From: Pedobacter glucosidilyticus DSM 23534
Lineage (GTDB): Bacteria; Bacteroidota; Bacteroidia; Sphingobacteriales; Sphingobacteriaceae
DNA length: 64,000 nt
Reading direction: 5' to 3'
Assembly (NCBI RefSeq): GCF_000425145.1
Contig: NZ_KE384311.1
Location: 1 to 64,000 of the forward strand
Part shown: piece after piece, positions 23,482 to 39,475 of the stretch
Layout: each line of letters starts with the position of its first letter
Position numbering within the stretch: the stretch's first letter is position 1
Position numbers and translations under genes: made by a program
The notes under the pieces: generated by a model
Databases searched by the model: none
Told to the model about the DNA's origin: nothing
Seen by the model: only the letters and a program-made list of their open reading frames with translations

Positions 23482-23558
23482 GGGCGTTTTAACACGCTGT
23501 CCGCTATATCTTTTTGGCTTTTTTGAGCCCAAAAGGATGTCGCTACCATCGTTAACGC
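23482..23558 (+). ncRNA. structured intergenic element, Sphingobacteriaceae-type repeat
   Basis: The 392-nt gap 23298-23690 contains a block opening with GGGCGTT, then GCTGTCCGCTATATC, a hairpin (TTTTTGGC/GAGCCCAAAA), then AAAAGGATGTCGCT and a closing AACGC that pairs with GCGTT at 23484-23488. I recognise these words as a recurrent intergenic element of Bacteroidota genomes, from memory only. It could be a REP-like DNA element or a structured RNA; the strand and type given are provisional. Nothing else is supported in the gap. Confidence 0.45.
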
Positions 23559-23690
23559 AATATTAAAGCGTAGGAATGTATAAATGGTACAGATAACCAA
23601 AATTAAATCATATTTAAATCCATTAAATACTACAGCTATTTTGATATTTGATTTTTGGATGTATTTTGCAGTCGTAATTTTTGTTAAGGC

Positions 23691-37426: not shown

Positions 37427-38431
37427 TTAGTTTTTACTGATATCTATAAGTTTTTGGAAAGATTTTAATGCACTACCATTAAGCAAGGCCATTTCTGCTT
37501 TATAAAAGCAATCTGCAAAGCTTAATTTACTTTCTATGGTTTTGATGGCTAAAGCTGCATTTACCAAAACAACGCTGCTTTGTTCTGTAGTAGCTTGGTT
37601 ATTTAAAACATTTAGAAATATTTTGGCAGAATCTTCTACGGTTGAGCCACCTGTAATCGTTTCGGCATCAATTTTATCAAAACCTAAGTCTTTAATAGCA
37701 TATAATTGTTCGCCTTGGTTAGAGAAGGTTTTAAAATCACAGGTTAGAGAAACCTCGTCATAACCTTCTAAAGCATGTAAAATGGTGTAGTTAATAGTAG
37801 AATTTTGATAGATATAAGCATATAAACGGGCAAGCTCTAAACTAAAAACACCAACAATTTGATTTTGTGGTTGTGCCGGATTAACCATAGGGCCCAGCAT
37901 GTTGAAAAATGTTTTTACACCAAGTTCTTTACGTATAGGTGCAATATGTTTCATTGCCGGATGAAATAAAGGAGCATGTAAAAAGCAAATTCCGGCCTCG
38001 TCTAAAGTTTTTAATAATTTATCTTCTTGATTAGTGAATTGATAGCCTAGATATTCCATCACATTGGAAGAGCCACAACCAGATGAAACGCCATAGTTAC
38101 CATGTTTAGCTACATGATAGCCTGCACCAGCAACCACAAAAGAAGCTAATGTAGAAATATTAAAAGTGTCTTTTCCATCGCCTCCGGTACCGCATAAATC
38201 TATCAAATTGAAGCTTTGGTTTAGTTTAACAGGTAAGCAAAGCTCTAGCATAGCATCTTTAAAACCTTGTAACTCTTCTACAGTAATAGAGCGCATACAA
38301 TAGGCTGTTAAAAAAGCCGCCATTTGCGAATTATTATAATTGCCAGAAGTAATTTTCTTTAATATCTCTTTAGACTCTGCAGTGCTAAAAGTTTTATGTT
38401 CAAATAAGTGGTTTAGAATTTCTTTCATCAA
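37427..38431 (-). CDS. trpD: anthranilate phosphoribosyltransferase
   Basis: TrpD joins anthranilate with PRPP. The 334 residues contain the PRPP-binding GTGGDGKDTFNISTLAS, the KHGNYGVSSGCGSSNVME segment (usually KHGNRAVSSKSGSADVLE) and the NMLGPMVNPA motif. It is the first structural gene of the operon; the attenuator sits 27-53 nt upstream. Confidence 0.95.
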   Translation of the reverse strand: MMKEILNHLFEHKTFSTAESKEILKKITSGNYNNSQMAAFLTAYCMRSITVEELQGFKDAMLELCLPVKLNQSFNLIDLCGTGGDGKDTFNISTLASFVVAGAGYHVAKHGNYGVSSGCGSSNVMEYLGYQFTNQEDKLLKTLDEAGICFLHAPLFHPAMKHIAPIRKELGVKTFFNMLGPMVNPAQPQNQIVGVFSLELARLYAYIYQNSTINYTILHALEGYDEVSLTCDFKTFSNQGEQLYAIKDLGFDKIDAETITGGSTVEDSAKIFLNVLNNQATTEQSSVVLVNAALAIKTIESKLSFADCFYKAEMALLNGSALKSFQKLIDISKN

Positions 38432-38457: not shown

Positions 38458-38484
38458 AAGGGGCATCCTCAACGGCAGCCCCTT
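38458..38484 (-). terminator. trp attenuator terminator
   Basis: The stem AAGGGGC/GCCCCTT is followed by TTTTTT on the minus strand. It ends 27 nt before the trpD start and lies 39 nt after the leader-peptide stop. It may also stop transcripts from the SDR gene upstream, whose stop is 175 nt away. Confidence 0.85.
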
Positions 38485-38522
38485 AACAGTATCTTATCAG
38501 GTATATACAAATAGGTTTTGCC

Positions 38523-38576
38523 TTACGATATTTCGTAATGCCACCACCATATTGTATTTACACTTGTTTGTCTCAT
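38523..38576 (-). CDS. trpL: trp operon leader peptide (MRQTSVNTIWWWHYEIS)
   Basis: This 17-codon ORF holds three adjacent TGG codons and ends in TAA. A hairpin (TTACGA-type arms, about 38523-38539) overlaps its end and can form a pause structure. Ribosome stalling at the Trp codons when tryptophan is scarce would change RNA folding ahead of the terminator at 38458-38484. It is a ribosome-mediated attenuation arrangement. Its position between a -7 box and trpD supports function. Confidence 0.85.
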   Translation of the reverse strand: MRQTSVNTIWWWHYEIS

Positions 38577-38584
38577 TGCAGAAG

Positions 38585-38592
38585 CAAATATG
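38585..38592 (-). promoter_or_regulatory. putative -7 box of the trp leader (CATATTTG)
   Basis: Seven of eight bases match TAnnTTTG. It ends 8 nt before the leader ATG, so the leader transcript would start at or near the ATG. Confidence 0.4.
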
Positions 38593-38659: not shown

Positions 38660-39475
38660 TTACCTAATTAAAGGATCTTTTTCTTTAGTGAAATGCTTGT
38701 AAACCAAGTGGTTTAAAAAGTTAGGGGCTATTTTTTGTAGAAATACGGTTAGCTTTCCTTGGGCTGTCATGATTAAAGTATTTTTTCTGCCAGCTATGCC
38801 ATTCATAATTTTACGAGCTACTTCTTCGGCAGTCATCATTTTACCTTCATCCATACTGGTTTCTCCTTGCGGACGGGCTTCGCTGTTTAAAGCTACATTT
38901 CTGATGTTAGATGCAGTAAAGCCGGGACAAGCTACCATTACATGTAAACCTGTTTTTAAATGCTCTACCCTAAGAGCCTCGAAAAAACCATTCATAGCAA
39001 ATTTTGAAGCCGAGTATCCGGTTCTGCCTGGTAAACCTTTGTAGCCTGCAATAGAGGATATTGCCACCACAGAACCACCATTATTAATTAATTCTGATAA
39101 AGCATATTTAGTACAATATACCGCTCCCCAAAAGTTAATATCCATCACTCTTTTTAATACTTCTAAATCTAAATCTTTAAATAAAGCCCGCATAGAAATA
39201 CCTGCATTATTGATTAAAATATCAATACGGCCCATGGTAAATAAAGTTTGGTTGATGATGTTTTTACAGTCTTCTTCCTGCGTTACATCAGCCTGTATGG
39301 CTAAAGCTTTTACTTTATATTTTTCTTGAATTTCATTGGTAATTTCGCAAAGTTTAACATACTGTCTTGCAGCAATGGCAATATGAGCTCCTTTTTTAGC
39401 AAATTCTTCTGCTAGTGCTTTGCCAATGCCGCTTGATGCGCCTGTAATCACTACCACTTTATTTTTAAAATCCAT
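38660..39475 (-). CDS. SDR family NAD(P)-dependent oxidoreductase
   Basis: The 271-residue Rossmann protein has TGASSGIGKALA (cofactor), NNAG, and the catalytic YSASK with the upstream Ser. It resembles short-chain dehydrogenases acting on lipids or ketones, but the substrate is not readable. It ends the recR-GT2-SDR operon with a 3-nt gap after the glycosyltransferase gene. Confidence 0.88.
   Translation of the reverse strand: MDFKNKVVVITGASSGIGKALAEEFAKKGAHIAIAARQYVKLCEITNEIQEKYKVKALAIQADVTQEEDCKNIINQTLFTMGRIDILINNAGISMRALFKDLDLEVLKRVMDINFWGAVYCTKYALSELINNGGSVVAISSIAGYKGLPGRTGYSASKFAMNGFFEALRVEHLKTGLHVMVACPGFTASNIRNVALNSEARPQGETSMDEGKMMTAEEVARKIMNGIAGRKNTLIMTAQGKLTVFLQKIAPNFLNHLVYKHFTKEKDPLIR

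Follow-up and report, generated by a model that had tools for sequence, protein, structure and literature searches.

In the trp attenuator of Escherichia coli, a leader peptide with adjacent Trp codons is combined with the RNA pairings 1:2, 2:3 and 3:4 and with an intrinsic terminator. T-boxes, TRAP and repressors are other known modes of trp gene control, and TnaC is an example of a nascent-chain sensor. The Bacteroid-trp RNA (RF01692) is listed in Table 1 of Weinberg et al. 2010 (PMC2864571) and has been reported upstream of the trp operon in Flavobacterium psychrophilum (PMC6414381), a species whose amino-acid operons are also said to give 'strong clues' of attenuation by leader peptides (PMC9723704); hints of leader-peptide regulation come from B. 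thetaiotaomicron (PMC7366714). A trpL transcript that begins at the ATG of the leader ORF is reported for Sinorhizobium meliloti (PMC7298713). The available parts of the F. psychrophilum accounts (PMC9723704, PMC6414381) do not mention a split operon or a second trp leader, and we found no description of trp leaders of Sphingobacteriaceae in the accessible portions of the open-access literature searched.

The window analyzed here, a stretch of 64,000 nucleotides from Pedobacter glucosidilyticus DSM 23534, encodes a trpD-F-B-A operon on its minus strand, and the leader of this operon is very probably a ribosome-mediated transcription attenuator, predicted to respond to tryptophan. The first structural gene, trpD (38428-37427; TIGR01245 above cut-off, NCBIfam), starts with the ATG at 38428, directly preceded by a TTG at 38431. 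It is followed by trpF (37425-36796; phosphoribosylanthranilate isomerase models matched, below their cut-offs), trpB (36793-35603; TIGR00263 above cut-off, NCBIfam) and trpA (35551-34778; TIGR00262 above cut-off, NCBIfam), all on the minus strand.

Sequence inspection placed all elements of the leader, on the minus strand, where the preliminary description had put them. Its −7 promoter box 8 nt before the leader ATG was confirmed as a −7-like box, CATATTTG (38592-38585), found at the same position in relatives; it agrees with TAnnTTTG at five of the six specified positions, C replacing the first T. The 17-codon ORF with three adjacent Trp codons likewise held at base level: MRQTSVNTIWWWHYEIS, stop included, occupies 38576-38523, with the ATG at 38576, 17 sense codons and TAA, and is conserved in relatives. 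The Trp codons, TGGTGGTGG (38549-38541), are the proposed stalling site. The core of hairpin 1:2 (TTACGA/TCGTAA, 38538-38523), seen in the fold, overlaps the end of the leader ORF. Strand 2 (AGGCAAAACCT, 38523-38513; GGCAAAACCT for 38522-38513) was recognized by complementarity to the 5′ arm of the terminator; its first base is the last base of the stop codon, and, as GGCAAAACC, it starts 20 nt downstream of the first base of the third Trp codon. Strand 3, AAGGGGCTGCC (38484-38474), can pair either with strand 2 as antiterminator or with strand 4 as terminator, and strand 4 (GCCCCTT) with a run of six T (38464-38454) forms the end of the intrinsic terminator. Also borne out is the terminator described just upstream of trpD: AAGGGGC...GCCCCTT with its six-T run, 38484-38454, lies between the leader ORF and trpD.

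The leader folds with a z of −2.41 relative to shuffles, 2 of 200 being equal or better. In the 64 kb there is only one short ORF (<=40 codons) with WWW, namely this leader, and it is accompanied by a terminator-like hairpin. Dinucleotide shuffling of the window (200 shuffles) gave a mean of 0.025 such ORFs and none with a terminator-like hairpin, and a chance ORF was rejected on these grounds.

Loci of relatives were collected by a TrpD protein scan of genome contigs, and the best 80 of 588 candidates were taken, so that the sample consists of close relatives. A chance WW ORF inside a gene at L067, and L079, where the start of trpE is cut off, were excluded before counting. Split operons are present at 57 loci (L003-L059), from Pelobium, Mucilaginibacter, Pedobacter, Pararcticibacter, other Sphingobacteriaceae, and Sphingobacteriales or Bacteroidetes bins. 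All 57 have trpD-trpF first; within the stretch the order is trpD-F-B-A in 50, trpD-F-B in six and trpD-F in one, and none of the 57 has trpE, trpG or trpC within it. The operon is intact, in the order trpE-G-D-C-F-B-A, at the other 23 loci (L060-L082; one from Flammeovirgaceae, the rest mostly from Cyclobacteriaceae and Flavobacteriaceae); two of these loci are cut.

A trpD leader with adjacent Trp codons was found at each of the 57 split loci by the ORF scan and a covariance model. The scan detected it in 55 (53 WWW; WW in L027 and L056), and the covariance model in L018 and L020, where the leader, with MIIKNLNNNWWWHNEIR, lies ~390-400 nt further upstream. In a same-genus sample, trpD is present in 17 of 18 genomes and preceded by the leader in all 17 (12 WWW, 5 WW), two of these loci being from the same genomes as L003 and L004. 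Removal of near-identical sequences left 69 distinct leaders of 72, L018 and L020 not among them, and a terminator hairpin is present in 69 of 69. Close relatives thus show no loss of the Trp codons or the terminator, for which the preliminary description had proposed to look.

The positions of the pairing strands are similarly constant. Counted from the first base of the final Trp codon, the best complement of the terminator 5′ arm begins 19-22 nt downstream in all 69 leaders, a spacing that shuffled leaders show in 632 of 6900 cases. Relative to the end of the stop codon, strand 2 starts at −2 to 0 nt in 57 leaders, at +5 to +7 in nine, and earlier, at −5, −14 or −24, in three (L035, L045 and L056). 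Because these positions are fixed, a ribosome stalled at the Trp codons would leave strand 2 open, whereas a ribosome that had reached the stop codon would mask it. Of the 69 leaders, 55 pair strands 2 and 3 more strongly than at least 95 of 100 shuffles do, and 42 more strongly than at least 98. In folding, the window RNA that a stalled ribosome would leave free, minus strand 4, adopts the 2:3 pairing.

Covariation was assessed in an alignment (A1) of 48 representatives of the 69 distinct leaders, with 500 shuffles; all 48 have the second and third TGG, and 41 have the first. In the terminator (3:4), 97.5% of cells are paired, and five pairs are double-changed, with 13 double-change cells, a level reached in 0 of 500 shuffles. 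Hairpin 1:2 has 85.9% of cells paired and 26 double-change cells; no shuffle reached these cells or the score, and the number of double-changed pairs was equalled in 152 of 500. In the antiterminator (2:3), 80.8% of cells are paired and sliding gives 54.8% at best, but among the 48 representatives its covariation does not exceed that of shuffles, as 112 of 500 reached it and its score was below the shuffle mean. When strands were swapped, a leader's own strand 3 surpassed those of other types in only 55 of 69 cases; for the window's type (three leaders), the common GGTTGCC type gave −11.1 kcal/mol versus −9.1 kcal/mol for its own strand 3. The window antiterminator has an internal loop and, at −9.1 kcal/mol, is weak beside the 1:2 hairpin. 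Thus, the case for the predicted antiterminator rests on complementarity and position. Of the alternative hairpins that the preliminary description wished to see aligned across relatives, the terminator and hairpin 1:2 covary, and the 2:3 pairing is complementary without covariation. Its ribosome-stalling arrangement is supported by the mutually exclusive pairings and by the conservation of the leader in relatives.

Taken together, these elements suggest the following scenario, for which coupling of ribosome and RNA polymerase in this phylum is an assumed premise. Transcription would start a few nucleotides before the leader ATG, and a ribosome would load immediately. Short of charged tRNA-Trp, this ribosome would stall on the three Trp codons and cover strand 1 of hairpin 1:2. 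Strand 2, left free, would pair with strand 3, so that the terminator could not form, and polymerase would continue into trpD. When Trp is plentiful, the ribosome would reach the UAA at the start of strand 2 and cover this strand, and the 3:4 terminator would form before trpD.

Upstream of the leader lies an SDR-type gene (39475-38660) of the same orientation, and hairpins followed by a T run stop transcription regardless of the preceding sequence. The hairpin might thus be the terminator of that gene, ending at 38660, or a constitutive one, with the Trp ORF incidental. We consider this extremely improbable, given that WWW together with a terminator did not arise by chance in 200 shuffled windows, that the Trp codons, their spacing and hairpin 1:2 are retained across loci, and that intact operons carry an equivalent leader before trpE. 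A simple terminator of the upstream gene was rejected in view of the conserved Trp codons, spacing and hairpin. Control by a T-box, a TRAP-type system or a repressor would also be responsive to Trp, as are known modes of trp gene regulation, but its probability is close to negligible. None of the three would require that Trp codons be conserved 20 nt upstream of strand 2. The T-box was rejected, with no covariance-model match in the window at gathering level nor at E<=10 in 341 nt, and Trp repressor control was rejected in the absence of a match to the repressor family PF01371 in the host genome.

Attenuation by codon stalling presupposes that the leader ORF is translated. Upstream of the Trp codons, frame 0 has the highest proportion of synonymous codon differences (0.15; shifted frames, 0.06 and 0.093), and downstream of them it does not (0.092; shifted frames, 0.049 and 0.174), both comparisons being uncorrected for kinship. 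Asn before WWW is encoded by AAC and AAT about equally, whereas right after WWW it is AAC in 32 of 32 cases, and the base sits in the hairpin. This pattern fits a leader ORF that would be translated and have its tail shaped by RNA structure. Upstream of WWW the peptide is Asn-rich, often with LNNN, and its residues are maintained while AAC and AAT vary, so this part of the peptide seems constrained in sequence. Accordingly, the peptide could be imagined to act in trans or as a nascent-chain sensor, besides or instead of codon stalling, and the trans-acting peTrpL reported in Sinorhizobium (PMC7298713) is a precedent. This nevertheless appears highly unlikely: the residues after WWW change as the RNA structure does, an A-rich, unstructured beginning of the ORF would likewise yield Asn, and leader peptides differ strongly between lineages (e.g. 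MRQTSVNTI, MIQTNGLNL).

The leader ORF is predicted to lie very near the 5′ end of its transcript. With the position of the promoter box, −12 to −5, taken from a report on F. psychrophilum (PMC9723704), the window leader is predicted to start 5 nt past the last base of the box and to have a 5′ UTR of ~4 nt. The box and the first in-frame ATG are 5-13 nt apart in 65 of 72 trpD leaders and 15-16 nt apart in five, the box not being assignable in L016 and L045. This distance is 5-9 nt in 41 of 43 trpE leaders of the host family (see below) and 8-19 nt in 21 of 22 leaders of intact operons. From these spacings and the box position, the predicted 5′ UTRs are 1-9 nt (trpD), 1-5 nt (trpE) and 4-15 nt (intact operons). 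Genome-wide, a median 5′ UTR of 24 nt with 5.5% leaderless is reported for F. psychrophilum (PMC9723704), and ~3.7% of 5′ UTRs are reported to be shorter than 10 nt in B. thetaiotaomicron (PMC7366714).

The missing genes trpE-trpG-trpC are located on another contig of the host genome (G000:C4; locus L111). TrpG and TrpC score above curated cut-offs, and the identity of TrpE is derived from context, as TrpE models matched it below their cut-offs. This second operon has its own WWW leader, MIIKTNTLKWWWYSNM, followed by a terminator, AACCTGAC...GTCGGGTT with T7. For this reason a trpD-first operon is the rule in the clade: the preliminary description was right that the operon is headed by trpD rather than trpE, but this is no oddity. 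We collected 43 trpE loci from genomes of the genus and the family (trpE is present in 50 genomes of the family sample, of which 30 were used). Their leaders contain WW in 38 cases (26 WWW), W-x-W in two and a single Trp in three, and all 43 have a terminator hairpin of −10 kcal/mol or below. The polarity is the reverse of that in the trpD leader, strand 3 being C-rich (CCCGACG) and strand 4 G-rich. For covariation, 33 of 40 leaders were used after near-identical ones had been dropped, with L130, L138 and L140 left out for having no adjacent Trp codons. The terminator covaries, and in the antiterminator one pair is UA in 14 and CG in eight of the 33, a count that 21 of 500 shuffles reach. The three leaders left out, all from genus g3, have one Trp codon at the stalling place and retain the hairpin and the terminator; possibly they represent a weakened switch.

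Intact operons carry a WWW leader before trpE at all 22 readable loci (L079 being cut). At one of them, L078, a covariance model built on the trpD leaders (R1) has tandem matches before trpE, at 2060-2184 with MRNNTINNAWWWHFPN and 2282-2403 with MKNRMNKNWWWHFTKLRD, which may be two attenuators in series. We compared R1 with a second model, R2, built on trpE leaders of the host family. R1 scores 34.3-64.0 bits on the 22 intact-operon leaders and at most 38.2 bits on the 43 family trpE loci, five of which give no match. R2 scores below R1 on all 22 intact-operon leaders, reaching at most 46.1 bits, with no match at L066. The trpD leader is thus closer to the intact-operon trpE leaders than the family's own trpE leaders are, an argument from similarity and not from a tree, since the two models are unequal in helices and depth and the score ranges overlap. 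Because of this greater likeness, the trpD leader may be the ancestral one, retained at its original site: trpE-G and trpC were probably lost from an ancestral L-trpEGDCFBA operon, the old leader staying before trpD. With the pathway split and each half having its own Trp leader, both halves should answer the same signal. A more elaborate scenario is tentative and, in our judgement, somewhat doubtful: that the ancestral operon was cut in two, with the old attenuator kept at trpD and an attenuator of inverted polarity gained or rebuilt at trpE-G-C, and that the near-leaderless starts (~1-9 nt) are a device that synchronizes ribosome and polymerase in a phylum reported to have no Shine-Dalgarno signals.

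R1 was also applied to wider samples. It matches 113 of 121 family genomes at E<=0.1, a tally that includes matches below ~46 bits, and 91 of 121 at 47.8 bits or more. Of the eight family genomes without a match, six also have no trpE match; among the other two, G048 has trpE and G082 was outside the trpE search. Across the phylum, 61 of 198 sampled genomes are matched at E<=0.01. The best matches from both samples, at 37 loci, adjoin a trp gene in 36, the remaining one (L190) being without trpD or trpE; the neighboring gene is trpD in 13, all in the host family, and trpE in 23, all outside it. Twenty further matches were examined, mostly weaker ones (33-45 bits), with one at 91 bits and some at known trpE sites. 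Trp genes were found at only four of them (L199, L202, L210 and L211); the rest comprise a threonine leader (L195) at 45.1 bits and matches of at most 41.4 bits without trp genes. Since weaker matches are mostly not trp, R1 matches below ~46 bits are no evidence on their own. At L198 (G100:C22), R1 matches at 1031-1157 with 40.3 bits; a leader with a single Trp, MKLTANNNWQPRSINLL, and a terminator precede a gene there.

Cross-matching of R1 also led to a leader of another kind. L195 (G016:C52), from the same genus, was found in this way and has MKRNLTTTTTTSTTTLMR and a terminator directly before thrA. In the host, thrA (bifunctional aspartate kinase/homoserine dehydrogenase; NF006959 above cut-off) is preceded by a Thr-rich leader with a GTG start, VNNNYTTTITYTMTLCA (L225, G000:C5, 2130-2077, minus strand), and a terminator near 2041-2011, and therefore a threonine attenuator is likely. 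A pattern search for Thr or His runs found no leader. Separately, the window contains a Flavo-1 RNA (RF01705) at 23486-23563 on the minus strand, with 48.6 bits, above its gathering score.

Among Rfam families, RF00513 (Trp_leader, E. coli type) did not match the trpD leader at E<=10. RF01692 aligns with it end to end (model positions 1-131 of 131) at 41.0 bits and E 0.0013 in 341 nt; the model itself stops within the terminator 5′ arm. As the gathering score is 49 bits, formal membership was rejected, and the leader is classed as a divergent relative of RF01692. RF01692 gave no match to the host trpE leader at E<=10, and a few trpE leaders of other genomes match it weakly, e.g. 31.2 bits beside trpE of G055. 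Two sub-threshold matches in the host genome (G000:C4:89192 and C9:7104) have neither a trp gene nor, by ORF scan, an adjacent-Trp leader. Above cut-off, RF01692 is found in 15 of 198 phylum-sample genomes, all in one family (f4), and in 2 of 61 genomes of the host family, so that the model misses most of its relatives there.

If the attenuator reading is true, the system would be a widely conserved test bed for ribosome-polymerase coupling in a phylum without Shine-Dalgarno signals, because such attenuation requires ribosome and polymerase to be in step. In addition, two independent-looking Trp attenuators of different build in one genome would allow an internal comparison.

Compared with the described systems, the window leader resembles Bacteroid-trp RNA in that the start codon, Trp codons and hairpin 1:2 are in register and that both occur before trp genes in Bacteroidetes; it differs in preceding trpD and not the head of an intact operon. 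It is predicted to work like the E. coli trp attenuator, with adjacent Trp codons, the 1:2, 2:3 and 3:4 pairings and an intrinsic terminator, but, unlike there, the predicted 5′ UTR is ~4 nt, the operon begins with trpD and the genome has no Trp repressor match. As reported, S. meliloti trpL provides a precedent for a leaderless leader peptide, albeit in another phylum and with another gene order. The trpD leader is very probably an attenuator of a known kind, with a differently built twin before trpE.
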